64,000 nt of DNA from Tamlana crocina (GTDB lineage: Bacteria > Bacteroidota > Bacteroidia > Flavobacteriales > Flavobacteriaceae), in contig CP158972.1 in NCBI GenBank assembly GCA_040429635.1, forward strand, positions 1,002,001-1,066,000. The letters run 5' to 3'. The position numbers and the translations under genes were made by a program. The notes under the pieces are model-generated. The model was not told the DNA's origin. It searched no databases and saw nothing but the letters and a program-made list of their open reading frames with translations. Below are positions 8,002 through 41,943 of this stretch, piece after piece; the first letter of the stretch is position 1, and each line of letters starts with the position of its first letter.

Positions 8002-8271
8002 TTATTTTCTTAATCCTAATTCTTTTACTATGGCACGATATCTTAAGATATCTTTCTTAGTTAAGTAATCAAGTAAAGCACGACGCTTACCTACTAATTT
8101 AACCAACGAACGCTCGGTGTTAAAATCTTTACGATTGTTTTTTAAGTGCTCGGTTAAGTGGTTTATACGGTGTGTAAACAACGCAATTTGTCCTTCGGCG
8201 CTACCAGTATCGTTCTTTCCTTTACCGTGCTTTTCGAAGATGTTTTCTTTTACTTCTTTTGATAAATACAT
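8002..8271 (-). CDS. rpsO: 30S ribosomal protein S15
   Basis: Small-subunit protein that binds the central domain of 16S rRNA and nucleates platform assembly. The start at 8271 gives 89 residues beginning MYLSKEVK, the standard length; the upstream in-frame ATG at 8355 lies in the promoter and is rejected. Family motifs include DTGSAEGQIALFT, HRINHLTEHLK and KRRALLDYL. It has a well-formed promoter about 55 bases upstream and its own terminator. Confidence 0.97.
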   Translation of the reverse strand: MYLSKEVKENIFEKHGKGKNDTGSAEGQIALFTHRINHLTEHLKNNRKDFNTERSLVKLVGKRRALLDYLTKKDILRYRAIVKELGLRK

Positions 8272-8325
8272 GCTAATATTATTGTAAATGATTGTTATGT
8301 ACACGAAAGTCTTTCTTCCGAGCGG

Positions 8326-8355
8326 CAAAGATAGATAATTTTTATGATTGCACAA
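8326..8355 (-). promoter_or_regulatory. Promoter of rpsO
   Basis: On the minus strand TTG (8355-8353) is followed by a 19-base spacer and TATCTTTG (8333-8326), a full match to the Bacteroidota -33/-7 promoter. Predicted transcription start about 8320, leaving a leader of about 50 bases. Confidence 0.75.
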
Positions 8356-31807: not shown

Positions 31808-31877
31808 AATATTGTATTTTATTGCAAGATTTGACGGAAAACGTCGAAGGAAGTTCGCACTGCCTTTAGCATTTTTC

Positions 31878-31904
31878 ATGCCGTACTTGATACGGCATCT
31901 CATC
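31878..31904. repeat. Interspersed palindrome GATGC..GCAT in metK leader
   Basis: ATGCCGTA, loop CTTGA, TACGGCAT. A second copy with the same frame but different arm bases (GATGCTGAATCGAGTTCAGC) is at about 32167-32186. Such palindromes recur in flavobacterial intergenic DNA. Confidence 0.6.
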
Positions 31905-31970
31905 TTCGAAATTATCGAATCTGAAAGAGGTTGCAATCAGTCAAATCTTTCCTCTGTTTTTTTGATTGGG

Positions 31971-32130: not shown

Positions 32131-32252
32131 AATTTAATTATAAAATGAAGGTTTATTGGCAACATGGGATGCTGAATCGAGTTCAGCATGACGAAAACGA
32201 CGTGTTATGAAGAAAAGTAAACATTCAATTTTAAGGATTTCTTTTCAAAAAA

Positions 32253-32283
32253 TTGGCTGTTACATTTTATTTGTAAATATTTG
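32253..32283 (+). promoter_or_regulatory. Possible promoter of the ilv leader
   Basis: TTG (32253-32255), 20-base spacer, AATATTTG (32276-32283), one mismatch from TANNTTTG. Transcription would start just before the leader ATG at 32295. Confidence 0.4.
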
Positions 32284-32294
32284 TACTTCCAAAA

Positions 32295-32360
32295 ATGAGA
32301 AAACACGTTTTAAATATGGTCATTTCTACAGTCGGTGTCGTTATTGCGCATCGAAAGTAG
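32295..32360 (+). CDS. ilv operon leader peptide
   Basis: A 21-codon frame, MRKHVLNMVISTVGVVIAHRK, ends at TAG 32358-32360. Eight of its 21 residues are branched-chain amino acids (Val 5, Ile 2, Leu 1), clustered at positions 5-17, and it lies about 310 bases upstream of ilvD. It is followed within 30 bases by an intrinsic terminator. This is the arrangement of ribosome-mediated attenuation: starvation for Val/Ile/Leu would stall the ribosome before the stop codon. There is no Shine-Dalgarno sequence, which is normal here. The leader is inferred from sequence and is too short for ordinary gene prediction. Confidence 0.75.
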   Translation: MRKHVLNMVISTVGVVIAHRK

Positions 32361-32398
32361 GGCTGGTTTAATTAAACGAAAATATAAATTAAAGCCTT
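32359..32398 (+). promoter_or_regulatory. Possible antiterminator pairing in the ilv leader
   Basis: AGGGCT (32359-32364), overlapping the leader stop codon, can pair with AGCCTT (32393-32398), the left arm of the terminator. A ribosome at the stop would cover the first segment and let the terminator form; a ribosome stalled at the Val/Ile codons would leave it free. Confidence 0.5.
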
Positions 32399-32419
32399 CC
32401 CAAATGTGAGGGCTTTTTT
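32391..32419 (+). terminator. ilv attenuator terminator
   Basis: AAAGCCTTC (32391-32399) pairs with GAGGGCTTT (32408-32416) with one wobble pair, followed by a run of T. It lies 30 bases after the leader stop and 248 bases before ilvD. Confidence 0.8.
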
Positions 32420-32666
32420 AATGCAATTTTTTTTCATTTTGGGCATCATAAAAATATTGCGTTAAACACCTGACAAACAGTTGTTTGAGTTTGTTTTCTG
32501 TGTTGTGGATTTAACCTGTAAATACAATACGGGGGTAAGATAAAGCAGCAATAAATTAATTTCGAAAACTGTTTAAGTGGGTTTTGTTGAAATTTTTGAA
32601 AAACCCTTAAAAATTTTAGAATATATCACTAATTCACGATTAAAATAAGAATTATTCATAATAAAA
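32420..32666. other. Long untranslated stretch between attenuator and ilvD
   Basis: About 250 bases without a gene. I see only a weak pair GGGTTTT/AAAAACCC at about 32579-32612 and no second leader or promoter match. It may be part of the ilv 5' untranslated region. Confidence 0.4.
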
Positions 32667-34352
32667 ATGAAGGAACTTAATAAATATAGTAGAAGGTTAA
32701 CTCAGGATGAATCGCAGCCCGCTTCGCAGGCCATGTTGTATGCCGTTGGTTTAACGGATGAAGATATGAACAAGGCCCAAGTAGGGATAGCTAGTACAGG
32801 TTACGATGGCAACCCATGTAACATGCATTTAAATAGGCTAAAGGATGAGGTGAAAATAGAGTGTAAGATTGCCAATTTAGTAGGTTTAGGCTTTAACACT
32901 ATTGGAGTGAGTGACGGTATTTCTATGGGTACTTCTGGGATGAACTACTCGTTGGCGTCGCGAGATATTATTGCCGATTCTATTGAAACCGTAATGAATG
33001 CACAAAGTTACGATGCGTTGATTTCTATTGTAGGTTGCGATAAAAATATGCCGGGTGCCGTTATTGCTATGTTGCGTTTAAACCGTCCTTCAATTATGAT
33101 GTACGGCGGAACGATTGCTTCTGGAAATTATAATGGAAAAAAATTAAATATTGTTTCGGCTTTTGAAGCTTTGGGACAAAAAGTAGCGGGTGAGATTGAC
33201 GAAGACGAATACCGCGAAATTATTAAAAGAGCCATTCCTGGGGCTGGTGCTTGCGGTGGAATGTATACCGCCAACACCATGGCGTCGGCTATAGAGTGTA
33301 TGGGCTTTGCTTTGCCTTATAACTCGTCTATTCCAGCTGAAAACCCAAATAAATTATCGGAAGCCGAGCGCCATGCGATTGCTATTAAAAAGCTGTTGGA
33401 ATTGGATTTGAAACCTTTGGATATCATTTCAAAAAAATCCATTGAAAATGCCATCGCTTTAGTGAATGCTTTAGGCGGGTCGACCAACGCGGTATTGCAC
33501 TTTTTGGCCATTGCCCATGCGGCCGATATTGAATTTACTTTAGAGGATTTTCAGCGTGTAAGCGACAGAACACCGCTTATTGCCGATTTAAAGCCTAGCG
33601 GAAAATATTTAATGGAAGATGTTCACGGTATTGGTGGAACACCGGCCGTGATGAAATATCTTTTGGATAATGGCTATTTGCACGGTGATTGTATGACGGT
33701 TACGGGTAAAACCTTAGCTGAAAACTTGGCGGATGTAGAGCCTTTGGAGTTTGAAGAAGATAGCCAAGATGTGATTTATCCAACCGATAAAGCATTGAAG
33801 ACTTCTGGAAACCTACAAATCCTTTACGGAAACTTGGCCAGCGAAGGTGCTGTGGCAAAAATTTCTGGAAAGGAAGGATTGGTGTTTGAAGGTAAAGCCG
33901 TGGTTTACGATGGTGAACAAGCAGCGAATACAGGGATTTCGAATGGTGAAGTACAACGTGGTGATGTGGTCGTCATCAGGTACGTCGGCCCAAAAGGTGG
34001 TCCCGGTATGCCAGAAATGCTAAAACCAACCTCGTTGATTATGGGAGCTGGTTTAGGTAAATCGGTGGCCTTGATAACCGACGGACGTTTCTCTGGTGGT
34101 ACGCACGGATTTGTAGTGGGGCACATCACGCCAGAAGCGCAAACCGGAGGGACTATTGGCTTAGTGAAAACTGGTGATAAAATTAGAATCAGTGCCGAGG
34201 ACAACTCCATTAATGTGTTGATTTCAGATGAAGAAATGGCCAAAAGAAAAGCCGAATGGAAAGCGCCAGAGCTTAAACATAAAAAAGGTATTTTATACAA
34301 ATACGCTAAATCGGTAGCATCAGCATCAAAAGGATGTGTTACCGATGCGTAA
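32667..34352 (+). CDS. ilvD: Dihydroxy-acid dehydratase
   Basis: Iron-sulfur enzyme that dehydrates 2,3-dihydroxy-isovalerate and -methylvalerate to the keto acids of valine and isoleucine. The 561-residue protein carries the cluster cysteines in VGCDKNMPG and [14 protein letters not shown], and [12 protein letters not shown] and [12 protein letters not shown]. First structural gene of ilvD-ilvB-ilvN-ilvC-ilvA, behind a predicted attenuator. Confidence 0.97.
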
Positions 34353-34404
34353 AAATTGATTTTTTTCATTTCCGCGGAAGCGGGAATCTCAATAAAGTGT
34401 GACT

Positions 34405-36138
34405 ATGAAAACACAAACCGCAGAAAAAACAAAAGAAGTGGCAAATAAAGTAGAACGTATTACAGGCGCCGAAGCCGTTATAAAAAGCTTGATAGCAGAA
34501 GGTGTGGATATTTTATATGGTTATCCGGGTGGAGCTATTATGCCTGTTTACGACGAGTTATATAAATTTCAAGATCAAATTCATCACGTATTAACGCGTC
34601 ACGAGCAAGGTGCGGCACATGCAGCGCAAGGTTATGCGCGTATTTCGGGAAAGGTGGGGGTGGCCATGGCAACATCAGGGCCAGGTGCAACCAATTTAGT
34701 TACCGGAATTGCTGATGCGCAAATCGACTCCACGCCGTTGGTGTGTATTACGGGGCAGGTGGCTTCGCATTTATTGGGAAGTGATGCGTTTCAGGAAACC
34801 GACATTGTGGGTATTTCAACACCAGTAACCAAATGGAATTGCCAAGTAACCAATGCAGCCGATATTCCTGCAGCTTTGGCCAAGGCCTTTTATATCGCTA
34901 AAAGCGGAAGACCGGGACCGGTATTGGTAGATATTACCAAGAATGCACAGGTGTCTGAATTGGATTTTAAATATGAAAAATGTACTGGAGTTCGCAGTTA
35001 TAAGCCGGTTCCAAAAACCAGTCCTGAAGCTGTTAAAGCCGCAGCTGAATTAATCAATAATGCCAAAAAACCCATGATTGTTTGGGGGCAAGGTGTTATT
35101 TTGGGAGAGGCTGAAGCCGAACTGAAAGCTGTTATCGAAAAATCTGGTGTGCCAGCGGCATGGACTATTTTAGGGGCATCGGCATTGCCAACATCACACC
35201 CATTAAACGTGGGTATGGTGGGGATGCATGGTAACTATGCGCCTAACAAATTAACCAACGAATGCGATGTGCTTATTGCTATTGGTATGCGTTTCGATGA
35301 CCGTGTAACGGGGAATTTGGCAACCTATGCCAAGCAGGCCAAAGTGGTTCATTTTGATATCGACCCGGCCGAAATAGATAAAAACGTAAAAACCGATGTG
35401 GCCGTTTTAGGAAACTCGAAAGAGAGCTTGGCGATGTTGTTGGAGGCTTTAAATGAAAACAGTCACGAGGCGTGGTTGCAGGAGTTTAAAGATCTATACA
35501 AAATTGAGTTTGAAAAAGTCATTAAAGACGATTTGGAGCCGACCAAAGAAGGCTTGACTATGGGTGAGGTGCTTAAGCAAATCAACATAGAAAGTAAGGG
35601 GCAGGCAGCTATTGTTTCAGATGTGGGGCAGCACCAAATGATTGCGTGTCGTTATGCCGATTTTAACGTGACTAAAAGTAACATTACTTCAGGTGGTTTG
35701 GGTACCATGGGCTTTGCGCTTCCTGCTGCTATCGGAGCTAAAATGGCAGCGCCAGAGCGAGAGGTGGTTGCTATTATTGGCGACGGAGGTTATCAAATGA
35801 ACATTCAGGAATTGGGTACCATTTTCCAAACCAAAGCAGCGGTTAAGATTGTAGTGCTTAACAACGAATTTTTAGGAATGGTACGCCAATGGCAGCAGTT
35901 ATTTTTCGATAAGCGTTATGCTTCCACCGAAATGACCAACCCTAATTTTGTGGCGATTGCCGAGGGCTATTACATCAAAGCAAAACGCGTTACCAAGCGA
36001 GAGGAATTGGCCGATGCCGTTAAGGAAATGATGGCTTCAAAAGAGTCGTACTTCCTTGAGGTTTGTGTAGAGAAAGAAGATAACGTATTTCCAATGATAC
36101 CTACGGGAGCATCGGTTTCTGATGTAAGATTAAGTTAA
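34405..36138 (+). CDS. ilvB: Acetolactate synthase large subunit
   Basis: ThDP-dependent condensation of pyruvate with pyruvate or 2-ketobutyrate, the committed step for valine and isoleucine. I use ATG 34405 (577 aa); a GTG six bases earlier is also in frame. Order: Pyr domain (GYPGGAIMPVYDEL, catalytic Glu in RHEQGAAHAAQGYAR), central FAD-binding domain, PP domain with the ThDP motif IIGDGGYQMNIQELGT and NNEFLGMVRQWQ. It works with IlvN, 115 bases downstream. Confidence 0.97.
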   Translation: MKTQTAEKTKEVANKVERITGAEAVIKSLIAEGVDILYGYPGGAIMPVYDELYKFQDQIHHVLTRHEQGAAHAAQGYARISGKVGVAMATSGPGATNLVTGIADAQIDSTPLVCITGQVASHLLGSDAFQETDIVGISTPVTKWNCQVTNAADIPAALAKAFYIAKSGRPGPVLVDITKNAQVSELDFKYEKCTGVRSYKPVPKTSPEAVKAAAELINNAKKPMIVWGQGVILGEAEAELKAVIEKSGVPAAWTILGASALPTSHPLNVGMVGMHGNYAPNKLTNECDVLIAIGMRFDDRVTGNLATYAKQAKVVHFDIDPAEIDKNVKTDVAVLGNSKESLAMLLEALNENSHEAWLQEFKDLYKIEFEKVIKDDLEPTKEGLTMGEVLKQINIESKGQAAIVSDVGQHQMIACRYADFNVTKSNITSGGLGTMGFALPAAIGAKMAAPEREVVAIIGDGGYQMNIQELGTIFQTKAAVKIVVLNNEFLGMVRQWQQLFFDKRYASTEMTNPNFVAIAEGYYIKAKRVTKREELADAVKEMMASKESYFLEVCVEKEDNVFPMIPTGASVSDVRLS

Positions 36139-36215
36139 TTGGAAAATAAGAAAACAGATAAAAGAATATAGAAACTAGAGATGGTGCAAGAGCTTTAAAG
36201 CAAGATTTAAACGTC

Positions 36216-36243
36216 TTTTCTCTTTCATCTTTTCTCTTTCATC
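36216..36243 (+). repeat. Two tandem copies of a 14-base unit
   Basis: TTTTCTCTTTCATC twice in succession, just upstream of the ilvN ATG (36254). Pyrimidine-rich; may come from slippage. Confidence 0.8.
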
Positions 36244-36253
36244 TTTTTTAAAA

Positions 36254-36787
36254 ATGAACGAAGACATAAAAACACTCACCATATCCGTTTATACCGAAAA
36301 CAACATTGGTTTGTTGAACCGTATTTCGGCTATATTTCAAAGGAGACACATTAACATTGAAAGCTTAACCACCTCGCAGTCTGAAATTGATGGCGTAAAC
36401 CGTTTTGTTATTGTAGTGAATATTACCGAAAGCCATGCTAAAAAAATCGTTAAGCAAATAGAAAAGCAGGTAGAAACGATTAAGGCTTATTACCATACCG
36501 ATGAAGAGACTATCTTTACCGAGTCGTGTATGTTTAAGATCAAGTCGAGTTTGTTGTTTGACGAACCTCAAATTCAAAATATAATTAAAGAGAGCGATAC
36601 CAGAATCGTTACCGTAAACCGCGAGTTTTTCGTTCTTGAAAAATCGGGCAGGCGCCACGAAATTGAAGCACTGCGTCGCGATTTGAACGTATTCGGTATC
36701 ATGCAGTTTGTGCGCTCGGGCCGAATTGCGGTAACCAAAGATGAAATGAAAGTAACCGAATTGCTTAAGGCATTCAATAACCAATAA
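36254..36787 (+). CDS. ilvN: Acetolactate synthase small regulatory subunit
   Basis: Regulatory subunit conferring valine feedback inhibition and full activity on IlvB. The 177-residue protein has an ACT domain at residues 5-80 ([30 protein letters not shown]) and a C-terminal ALS_ss_C domain. It ends 25 bases before ilvC. Confidence 0.95.
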
Positions 36788-36812
36788 TAGAATAATAACA
36801 ATTAAAATTAAA

Positions 36813-38288
36813 ATGGGAAATTATTTTAACACACTGTCGTTAAGAGACAAACTAGATCAATTATCGAAGTGTAGATTCATGGATACTTCTGAGTTTTCAG
36901 ATGGAGTAAATGCATTAAAAGGAAAGAAAATTGTAATAGTAGGATGCGGTGCCCAAGGGTTAAACCAAGGGTTGAACATGAGGGATTCTGGATTGGATAT
37001 TTCTTATGCATTGCGCGATGCTGCTATTTCAGAAAAGCGTGCTTCTTACGTTAATGCAACCGAAAACGGTTTTACAGTTGGTACTTACCAAGAATTGATT
37101 CCAACGGCCGATTTGGTGCTTAACCTTACGCCAGACAAGCAGCATACTAATGTGGTAAACGCGGTAATGCCTTTAATGAAAAAAGGAGCTACTTTGGCTT
37201 ATTCCCATGGATTTAATATTGTTGAGGAAGGAATGCAAATTCGTGAAGACCTTACCGTAATCATGGTAGCGCCTAAGTCGCCAGGTTCTGAGGTTCGCGA
37301 AGAATATAAAAGAGGTTTTGGTGTACCAACCTTAATTGCGGTACACGAAGAAAACGATCCAGAAGGAAAAGGTTGGGCGCAAGCTAAAGCTTATGCCGTA
37401 GCTACTGGTGGTGATAGAGCGGGTGTTTTGGCATCGTCTTTTATTGCTGAGGTGAAGTCTGATTTAATGGGTGAGCAAACCATTCTTTGTGGATTGTTGC
37501 AAACTGGTTCTATCCTTTGTTTCGACAAAATGGTTGAAAAAGGTATCGAGCCTGGCTATGCTTCAAAATTAATCCAATACGGATGGGAAACCATTACTGA
37601 AGGATTGAAGTACGGTGGTGTAACCAACATGATGGACCGTTTGAGTAACCCTGCAAAAATCAAAGCTTTTGAATTAGCTGAAGAGTTGAAGGATATTATG
37701 CGTCCGTTGTTCCAAAAGCACATGGACGATATTATTGAAGGGGAGTTCTCTAAAGGCATGATGGAAGATTGGGCTAACGACGATAAGAAATTATTGGATT
37801 GGAGAGCTGCTACCGGAGAAACTGCTTTCGAAAAAACGCCTGCTGGAGATGCAGAAATTACAGAGCAAGAGTACTACGATAACGGTGTGTTGATGGTCGC
37901 TTTTGTAAAAGCAGGTGTAGAATTAGCTTTTGAAGCTATGGTAGATTCTGGAATTATCGATGCATCGGCTTACTACGAGTCATTGCACGAAACGCCACTT
38001 ATCGCCAACACGATTGCTAGAAAGAAATTGTTCGAAATGAACCGTGTGATTTCTGATACAGCGGAGTACGGATGCTACTTGTTCGATCATGCTTGTAAGC
38101 CATTGTTGGCCGATTTTATGAAGAAAATCGATACCGACGTTATTGGTAAAGCATACGCTAAAGACAACGGAAAAGCAGTTGACAATGCTAAATTAATAGC
38201 GGTTAATAAGGCTTTGAGAAATCACCCTGTTGAAAAAGTAGGTGAGTTCCTTAGAGCTTCAATGACAGCTATGAAACCAATAGTATAA
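36813..38288 (+). CDS. ilvC: Ketol-acid reductoisomerase, class II long form
   Basis: Mg2+ and NADPH-dependent isomerisation and reduction of acetolactate. The 491-residue length marks the class II (E. coli-like) enzyme with a duplicated knotted C-terminal domain, longer than the 330-residue class I form. The Rossmann loop is [17 protein letters not shown] and the substrate segment includes [10 protein letters not shown] and [13 protein letters not shown]. It is co-directional with ilvN; a hairpin follows. Confidence 0.97.
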
Positions 38289-38328
38289 GCCATTAAAACA
38301 GACTAAACTAAACTAAATTTTGATGGTA

Positions 38329-38367
38329 AAACCTGTTGGATTTGTAAAGTCCAACAGGTTTTTTTTA
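38329..38367 (+). terminator. Strong hairpin between ilvC and ilvA
   Basis: AACCTGTTGGA (38330-38340) pairs with TCCAACAGGTT (38350-38360), followed by eight T. It should end most ilvD-ilvC transcripts; ilvA, 22 bases further on, would need readthrough or its own promoter. Confidence 0.9.
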
Positions 38368-38388
38368 TGACTAAAAAAATCAAAAGCT

Positions 38389-39648
38389 ATGGAAAGCCAA
38401 ACTTATTTTCCAAAACTGGAAGACATAAAAAAAGCAGCCGAAACCATTAAGAACGTTTCGGAGGTAACTCCGTTAAGTAAAGGTTTGAGGTATTCAAAAC
38501 AATTTGGTGCAGAAATTTATTTTAAGCGCGAAGATCTTCAGCAAGTACGTTCGTATAAAATTCGTGGGGCGTACAATAAAATAAGTTCGCTAACAAAAGA
38601 AGAAGCGCAAAATGGCGTAGTATGTGCCAGTGCGGGCAATCATGCTCAAGGTGTAGCGCTATCTTGCAAATTGTTGAAAATAAAAGGATCAATTTTTATG
38701 CCGGCACCAACGCCCAACCAAAAGGTGGAACAGGTAAAGATGTTTGGTGAAGATTTTATTGAGATCAAATTGGTGGGCGATACTTTTGACGATGCTAGTG
38801 AGGCGGCCATGAAGGAATGCAAAGAGCAAGGTAAAACCTTTATTCACCCTTTTGATGACAAAAGAGTGATTGAAGGGCAGGGCACGATAGGTTTGGAAAT
38901 TATTGAGCAAACCCAAGTGCCGATTGATTATGTGTTCATCGCTATTGGTGGTGGTGGATTGGCATCTGGGTTGTCAACCGTGTTTAAGGAATTGTCGCCC
39001 AACACAAAAATTATTGGGGTTGAACCAGAAGGGGCGCCATCCATGAAAACGTCCATTGCAAACAACCAAAACATCGAACTCGAACATATTGAAAAATTTG
39101 TTGACGGCGCAGCGGTAAAACGGGTGGGCGATTTAAACTTTGTTATCTGTAAACAGAATCTCGACGACGTGATTACTGTTCCCGAAGGGAAGGTTTGCGA
39201 AACCATTCTCGAACTTTATAACAAAGATGCCATTGTAGTAGAACCGGCCGGAGCACTGAGTATTGCTGCTCTAGATTTTTATGCTGAAAAAATAAAAGGC
39301 AAAAATGTAGTTTGCGTGGTTAGCGGAAGCAATAATGATATTACCCGAACTCCCGAAATTAAAGAACGGGCCTTGCTTTATGCGAATCTGAAACATTATT
39401 TTATTGTGAATTTTCCGCAGCGTGCAGGAGCCTTAAAGGAATTTGTGGTAGATATTTTAGGAGAGAATGACGATATCACCTATTTTCAATATGCTAAAAA
39501 AACTAATCGGGAAAACGGTTCTGCGGTGGTGGGTGTGCAATTAAAATCATCCAACGATTTGGAGCCACTCATTGCTAAAATGAAAAAACGGAACTTTTAC
39601 GGCGATTATTTAAATGACAAACCAGATTTGTTTCAGTTTTTGGTTTAG
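38389..39648 (+). CDS. ilvA: Threonine dehydratase, biosynthetic with single ACT-like domain
   Basis: PLP-dependent deamination of threonine to 2-ketobutyrate, feeding isoleucine synthesis. The 419-residue protein has the PLP lysine at 57 in RSYKIRGAYN, GGGGLASGL as the phosphate loop, and one C-terminal ACT-like domain (about 330-419, FIVNFPQRAGALKEFV), compared with two in E. coli IlvA. Expected to be feedback regulated by isoleucine. Separated from ilvC by a terminator. Confidence 0.94.
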   Translation: MESQTYFPKLEDIKKAAETIKNVSEVTPLSKGLRYSKQFGAEIYFKREDLQQVRSYKIRGAYNKISSLTKEEAQNGVVCASAGNHAQGVALSCKLLKIKGSIFMPAPTPNQKVEQVKMFGEDFIEIKLVGDTFDDASEAAMKECKEQGKTFIHPFDDKRVIEGQGTIGLEIIEQTQVPIDYVFIAIGGGGLASGLSTVFKELSPNTKIIGVEPEGAPSMKTSIANNQNIELEHIEKFVDGAAVKRVGDLNFVICKQNLDDVITVPEGKVCETILELYNKDAIVVEPAGALSIAALDFYAEKIKGKNVVCVVSGSNNDITRTPEIKERALLYANLKHYFIVNFPQRAGALKEFVVDILGENDDITYFQYAKKTNRENGSAVVGVQLKSSNDLEPLIAKMKKRNFYGDYLNDKPDLFQFLV

Positions 39649-41436: not shown

Positions 41437-41943
41437 ATGTTCGTTTATAAATATTTTACGCTCTTACTGTTGGCTGTGTTTTTAGTGGCCTGCGGTAACA
41501 AAGACAAAGAGAAAAAAGAAAATTTTTCTTATGAAAAAACAATGGAAGCCCCGAAAGCAGCCTCCAGCAACCCTAACGATGTAGTTATAACAGGTAATGA
41601 CGGCATGCAATTCAATAAAAAGCAAATCAGGGTTGAAGCTGGGAAAAAAGTAAAAATCACATTAAGGCACATTGGGAAAATGGACAAAAACGTGATGGGG
41701 CACAATTTTGTGTTATTGAAACAAGGGGTTGATGTGATGACCTTTGGGCCTAAAGCTGCTGCGTTTAAGGATAGTGAATATATTCCCGCTAATACTCAGG
41801 ATGTGATTGCGCACACCAAGCTAATAGGTGGAGGTGAAACAGCAGTAATCGAATTCGATGCTCCCGAACCAGGAGTTTATGATTTTATTTGCAGTTTCCC
41901 TGGGCATTATGCGCTTATGAAAGGCAAATTTATTGTGGAGTAA
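41437..41943 (+). CDS. Azurin-like lipoprotein, type 1 copper protein
   Basis: Soluble-domain blue-copper electron carrier tethered by a lipid. The lipobox LVAC puts the lipidated cysteine at 19, followed by a Lys/Glu-rich linker of about 25 residues and the cupredoxin domain (47-168). Copper ligands are His89 (MGHNF), Cys152 and His157 (DFICSFPGHY) and Met161. The protein probably carries electrons in the periplasm or on the outer membrane; partner oxidase or reductase is not in the window. It lies immediately after gapN. Confidence 0.92.
   Translation: MFVYKYFTLLLLAVFLVACGNKDKEKKENFSYEKTMEAPKAASSNPNDVVITGNDGMQFNKKQIRVEAGKKVKITLRHIGKMDKNVMGHNFVLLKQGVDVMTFGPKAAAFKDSEYIPANTQDVIAHTKLIGGGETAVIEFDAPEPGVYDFICSFPGHYALMKGKFIVE

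Follow-up and report, generated by a model that had tools for sequence, protein, structure and literature searches.

Does the short reading frame rich in branched-chain codons that lies before ilvD in Tamlana crocina belong to a ribosome-mediated attenuator, in a phylum without the usual Shine-Dalgarno initiation? We examined the locus in a window of 64,000 nucleotides (G000:C1:1002001-1066000) of the single-contig, 3.75 Mb host genome, and in the ilvD upstream regions of its relatives. Ribosome-mediated transcription attenuation of the ilv operon is the reading that we prefer, with a probability of about 0.87. The operon has the gene order ilvD-ilvB-ilvN-ilvC-ilvA and occupies positions 32667-39648:

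32667..34352, + strand: ilvD (TIGR00110)
34399..36138, + strand: ilvB, acetolactate synthase large subunit
36254..36787, + strand: ilvN/H, acetolactate synthase small subunit
36813..38288, + strand: ilvC
38389..39648, + strand: ilvA, threonine ammonia-lyase

Divergent from the operon, a SAM-II riboswitch (RF01726) lies upstream of metK at 31856-31960 on the minus strand (46.4 bits, cut-off 44). Elsewhere in the window an S15-Flavobacteria ribosomal protein leader (RF03161) was located at 8269-8333, also on the minus strand (70.8 bits).

Elements of the ilvD leader

Five elements were recognized between the start of the leader frame and the end of the terminator:

32295..32360, + strand: leader frame MRKHVLNMVISTVGVVIAHRK*, with Val/Ile control codons; GTC makes up three of its five Val codons
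32325..32361, + strand: protector (1:2) hairpin inside the leader frame, from the fold, synonymous-codon shuffles and a covarying homologue in 39 relatives
32360..32373, + strand: antiterminator 5' strand GGGcuGGUUUAAUU, starting within the leader stop codon, from the fold and an 87-unit permutation test
32387..32401, + strand: antiterminator 3' strand AAUUaAAGCCuuCCC, overlapping the left arm of the terminator, from the fold
32391..32419, + strand: intrinsic terminator with a 9 bp stem, an 8 nt loop and a U run, from the RNA fold and covariation in 39 relatives

A preliminary description of this DNA had claimed a frame of 21 codons with 8 Val, Ile or Leu residues followed by an intrinsic terminator. 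The ORF translation gives the frame exactly so (8/21 residues), and the terminator is present as AAAGCCTTC / CCAAATGT / GAGGGCTTT plus TTT. Richness in these residues is common by itself, since of the 440 window frames that begin with ATG and have 15-30 codons, 36 reach at least 8/21. A rich frame with a terminator 8-60 nt further on was found at only three places on both window strands, the ilvD leader included. The terminator folds at -11 kcal/mol (z -2.0), a value equalled by 10 of 200 shuffles; a simple terminator scanner missed it and reported one other site, and a separate scan of our own detected it.

The protector hairpin carries the control codons Val15-Val16-Ile17 in or near its loop and has the stop codon in its 3' arm. 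Its folding energy in the window is -15.6 kcal/mol (z -3.2 against synonymous-codon shuffles), and it is larger than the version of the relatives, which is mostly TTGTGA-TTATT-TCACAA and contains the last Val/Ile codons. This in-frame hairpin accounts for the conserved Ser-Gln end of the leaders.

Concerning the antiterminator, the preliminary description had proposed that AGGGCT, overlapping the leader stop, pairs with the left arm of the terminator. The motif is there and pairs with AGCCTT at -5.4 kcal/mol (-6.3 when the rest is free to fold), but this is a weaker register than that of GGGcuGGUUUAAUU with AAUUaAAGCCuuCCC (GGG..GGUUU with AAGCC..CCC), which reaches -9.2 kcal/mol with a z of only -1.4. 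Taken alone, the antiterminator of the window does not outperform shuffled regions (p 0.14).

Conservation among relatives

The decisive evidence for the observation is its conservation. We defined a leader and terminator unit as a Val/Ile/Leu-rich frame that is followed by a terminator after 8-60 nt. Of 164 ilvD upstream regions, 75 contain at least one such unit, whereas the same search on the reverse strand gave 4 of 164. The 75 loci hold 87 units in total, some of which are weak and maybe false (e.g. L126, L090, L016). The loci with units comprise 51 of the 86 in the family sample and 24 of the 78 named loci, and all three genomes of the genus carry one (L001, L031, L032). Beyond the family, units occur at the loci L127 and L131, both labelled Saprospiraceae, and at L104, labelled Ignavibacteriae.

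IlvD was detected in 87 of 120 family genomes and in 3/3 genus genomes. The family sample of 86 consists of 85 of these 87 genomes plus two genus genomes, less L083; G062 and G065 fall outside it, being fragmented or having the gene at a contig end. The further named ilvD loci were the best 80 of at least 596, and the nearest named relatives among the matches listed are Algibacter, Flaviramulus and other Flavobacteriaceae. The 164 regions are those left after removal of the duplicates L100 and L117 and of L083, which lacks upstream sequence; L020 has only 265 nt of it.

The preliminary description had suggested alignment with relatives as a check on the Val/Ile codons and on both stems. The leader frame is kept with its Val and Ile codons: among the 1722 leader residues of the 87 units there are 476 Ile, 237 Val and 104 Leu, and many leaders of close kin share the pattern M(K/R)xQILNI(I/V)SIIVIVIISQ(G/R). 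Two stem classes were distinguished, CCTTCC (class A) and CTGTATC (class B). Covariation was counted in 39 of the 64 class A units, after divergent units had been removed by hand. In this alignment pairing in the terminator reaches 96.8%, with double changes in 12 cells, and the protector hairpin is 82.5% paired with double changes in 10 of 11 pairs (29 such cells); 0/500 shuffles did as well in either case. The synonymous-codon control of the protector hairpin reached significance in only 26 of the 64 units of class A and 5 of the 23 of class B. Thus the expected covariation was found in the terminator and in the in-frame hairpin but not in the class A antiterminator, for which 330 of 500 shuffles were as good.

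Support for the antiterminator comes instead from a permutation test across loci. As in the covariation counts, the stems were picked by a finder that requires complementarity and the related sequences are non-independent. The terminator left arms of the 87 units pair with their own stop-codon region at -9.98 kcal/mol versus -7.32 with those of others, and 0 of 20,000 permutations matched this. Each class fits its own stop region: a class A arm on a B region gives -4.8 and a B arm on a B region -10.7. Single units were better than shuffled regions at p<0.05 in 49/87 cases.

A predicted, nearly leaderless leader mRNA

Two elements point to a promoter, P1, immediately before the leader frame:

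32253..32255, + strand: TTG, possible -33 element, separated by 20 nt from the -7 element of P1
32276..32283, + strand: AATATTTG, -7 element of P1, a conserved -7-like element before the leader ATG

The -7 element is given as TAnnTTTG at -12 to -5 in passages of a study of Flavobacterium psychrophilum (PMC9723704). By this measure the P1 start is predicted at about 32288, with a 5' UTR of about 7 nt, and the mRNA would therefore be nearly leaderless. Of the 75 first units, 54 show a -7-like element at 2-12 nt upstream of the leader ATG, compared with a mean of 4.6 and a maximum of 13 over 500 shuffles; among second units of serial loci the same search gave 0/12. TTG occurs at roughly equal spacing in many relatives. 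The predicted 5' UTR would be mostly 4-8 nt in class A and about zero in lone class B units, 9 of 13 of which have the -7 box 2-5 nt from the ATG; in Flavobacterium loci the box stands 18-22 nt before it. Such a placing is unusual, since passages of the same study count only 5.5% of the F. psychrophilum mRNAs with a mapped start as leaderless (PMC9723704).

A candidate second promoter behind the terminator

A conserved block and a second -7 box lie between the terminator and ilvD:

32439..32450, + strand: block site 1, TTGGGCATCATA, from the conserved block alignment
32462..32487, + strand: block site 2, imperfect inverted repeat AAACACCTG..CAGTTGTTT, from the block alignment
32506..32516, + strand: block site 3, TGGATTTAACC, from the block alignment
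32557..32564, + strand: TAATTTCG, -7 element of the putative promoter P2, 118 bp after the block start

The sequence TTGRRYRYSRTA is found between terminator and ilvD in 58 loci, the first 12 positions of the block being conserved through the selection of the rows. An alignment anchored on the block was more useful than a single global alignment of the terminator-to-ilvD stretch. It placed a -7-like TAnnTT(T/C)G at 117-119 nt from the block start in 46 of the 58 loci, all other offsets together giving 5 matches; the remaining 12 mostly have TAATTTAG at the -7 place. Within the block, conservation also peaks at 31-41, where CTG..CAG forms an inverted repeat, and at 67-77, which reads TGAATTTAACC. 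The rigid spacing, with little conservation between the sites, suggests proteins on the DNA, and block and -7 box together are likely a second promoter with a predicted start at about 32569. Attenuation therefore probably controls only part of the transcription of the operon.

The preliminary description had held that a transcription start downstream of 32419 would count against attenuation. Such a start is probably provided by P2, but the attenuator is not thereby removed. In the family sample (n=86), 34 loci have attenuator and block, 17 the attenuator only, 10 the block only and 25 neither; the last two groups indicate that the switch is dispensable. In the whole host genome the block matches exactly at ilvD only. 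When 2 mismatches were allowed, the count rose to 36 matches, versus 20 for a reversed control pattern, and these matches are for that reason uninformative on a regulon.

The most serious alternative is that the ilv genes are transcribed chiefly from P2 through a DNA-binding protein at the block, the attenuator being an accessory or a remnant with little effect. The three conserved sites with their fixed 117-119 bp distance to the box speak for it, as do the 10/86 family loci in which the block stands without a recognised attenuator. However, frame, protector hairpin and terminator are evidently selected in 51/86 family loci, 34 of them beside the block, the attenuator occurs without the block in 17/86, and the regulator itself is putative. 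We consider this alternative unlikely, though it deserves more weight than any other.

Leaders of other amino-acid operons

Leader codons that match the pathway were also found at other operons. All 20 related genomes, the host among them, have a frame with a His run before hisG (MTFIHTHHHFQIGSQAK in the host), and 19/20 have one with a Trp run before trpE (MNIILNTAWWWCFRN in the host). Terminators behind these frames were examined in the host genome (L215 and L250), where a terminator hairpin is readable after the Trp frame. At leuC no Leu leader was recognised in 20 loci.

These analogues bear on the idea of a constitutive terminator that shields the divergent metK/SAM-II region or closes a small RNA, the frame being a coincidence of AT-rich sequence with its many Val/Ile/Leu codons. 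Rich short frames are indeed frequent in the window (36/440), but together with the His and Trp leaders the conserved frame length, end motif and hairpin, and the excess of forward over reverse units (75/164 versus 4/164), make it most improbable.

Equally hard to credit is a metabolite riboswitch or T-box sensing the amino acid or tRNA directly, which would explain why an amino-acid operon is preceded by a conserved 5' region and a terminator, because the conserved structure sits in and just after a translated frame, the Rfam search of the ilvD leader region gave no family at the gathering score, no riboswitch or T-box matched in 32150-32700 at that score or at E up to 5, and the sub-threshold cis-regulatory bacterial matches were all leader-peptide models (Phe_leader 24.2, Leu_leader 21.7 and Trp_leader 16.2 bits; cut-offs 55, 50 and 41).

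Serial units and codon choice

Two units stand in series in 12 of the 75 loci (L013, L027, L034, L043, L046, L053, L057, L064, L094, L104, L111, L122); the window has one leader-terminator unit only and is not a tandem attenuator. In 10 of the 12 pairs the CCTTCC type comes first and the CTGTATC type second, and in 2/12 both are of class A. The second units should share the transcript of the first, because they lack a -7 box of their own. We infer an ancestral A-B pair from which the Tamlana genus, among other lineages, lost B.

The Val codon GTC makes up 110 of the 237 Val codons in the leaders (46%) versus 9.0% of 1845 in 51 ilvD genes, and it is enriched in both classes (75/179 and 35/58). 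ARAGORN typed 39 of 40 tRNA matches in the host genome, among them one Val-tRNA with the anticodon UAC, by which GTC would be read slowly through wobble; pairing in the hairpin may contribute part of the bias. Selective charging was considered as an explanation and rejected, since that account of codon choice, as given in passages of PMC1183508, requires two isoacceptors and only one Val-tRNA (UAC) is among the typed matches.

Proposed working of the switch

The locus has the parts of an attenuator: end-product codons, a terminator, an antiterminator (across loci) and a protector hairpin that overlaps the control codons. Conservation of the frame and covariation of terminator and in-frame hairpin support the attenuation reading of the preliminary description; how the switch would answer to the supply of Val and Ile we infer as follows. 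RNA polymerase would start from P1 at a site that the -7 box places about 7 nt upstream of the leader ATG, and a ribosome would load at once on the almost leaderless mRNA. With charged Val- and Ile-tRNA in ample supply, it would reach the stop codon at 32358 and cover the antiterminator 5' strand (from 32360); the terminator 32391-32419 would then form and the P1 transcript would end in the cell after about 130 nt. Under shortage of Val or Ile, the ribosome would stall at Val13-Ile17 (32331-32345) and open the protector hairpin 32325-32361, leaving GGGcuGGUUUAAUU free to pair with AAUUaAAGCCuuCCC, and transcription would continue into ilvD. Without a loading ribosome, the antiterminator strand would stay in the protector hairpin and the terminator would form. 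P2, about 150 nt past the terminator end and presumably governed by the three-part block, would probably bypass the switch.

A wider and more tentative reading, to which we give slightly less than even odds, joins four proposals on layered ilv control in Flavobacteriaceae. As parts of this joint reading, leaderless or near-leaderless leader mRNAs would let ribosomes load at the 5' end as the polymerase leaves the promoter, rather than by Shine-Dalgarno pairing; an ancestral Ile/Val pair, CCTTCC then CTGTATC on one transcript, would have given a multiplied response, of which the Tamlana genus kept one unit; a second promoter behind the attenuators would carry an operator of three sites spaced at a fixed helical distance; and GTC, which the one Val-tRNA found (UAC) would serve least among the Val codons, would have been chosen as the sensitive control codon.

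Comparison with known systems

The ilvGMEDA operon of E. coli has a leader, ilvL, rich in Val, Ile and Leu, a protector hairpin with control codons, an antiterminator near the leader stop and a terminator. The Tamlana ilv leader shares all these parts and the pathway, but differs in a predicted 5' UTR of about 7 nt without a Shine-Dalgarno sequence, a Bacteroidota sigma-A, few Leu codons and a likely second promoter between the terminator and the first gene. The kind of element is thus an ordinary ribosome-mediated attenuator; its distinguishing features would be the near-leaderless start, the second promoter and, in relatives, the serial units.

In the same family, passages on F. psychrophilum strongly suspect leader-peptide attenuation upstream of amino-acid operons, mentioning structured 5' regions with short peptides; those passages name neither sequence nor operon (PMC9723704). 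The Flavobacterium ilvD loci of our set have the leader about 60 nt before ilvD, a longer 5' UTR and no P2 block. For ilvBNC of C. glutamicum, passages of two papers describe a leader peptide before the ilv genes, treat the mRNA as leaderless and give a three-hairpin model (PMC11857589, PMC3890552); phylum and sequence are different, and the Tamlana class A leader is near-leaderless, not strictly leaderless. Two leader frames in series on one transcript are described for Salmonella mgtCBR in passages of PMC3641672, according to which mgtM and mgtP sense different signals, whereas both members of the flavobacterial pairs have Ile/Val runs and the Tamlana window has one unit. At the time of a 2010 survey, the known leader-peptide systems were confined to Proteobacteria and Actinobacteria (PMC2965389). 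In the CC-licensed PMC literature on Bacteroidota attenuation, tandem leaders and flavobacterial ilvD we found no description of a flavobacterial ilv leader.

On this comparative evidence, classical attenuation works in a phylum without the usual Shine-Dalgarno initiation, and a start codon at or near the 5' end suggests how the ribosome reaches the leader in time. Coupling of transcription and translation in Bacteroidota thereby becomes testable with a small reporter, for which the covarying hairpin and the class A and B stems are ready mutation targets. Second promoter and serial attenuators would make the control of the ilv operon a layered one.

Variant and additional frames

Another Val/Ile/Leu-rich frame in the window, at 41858-41920 (+), reads out of the end of an ORF, with a strong terminator behind it. 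The frame shares sequence with the ORF 41437-41943, and the terminator is probably that gene's own. In nine loci (L124, L128, L129, L140, L141, L157, L030, L114 and L019) the leader frame extends across the antiterminator sequence to a GMV or GML end, and a GGAATGGTATA-like sequence is kept there despite being read in frame.
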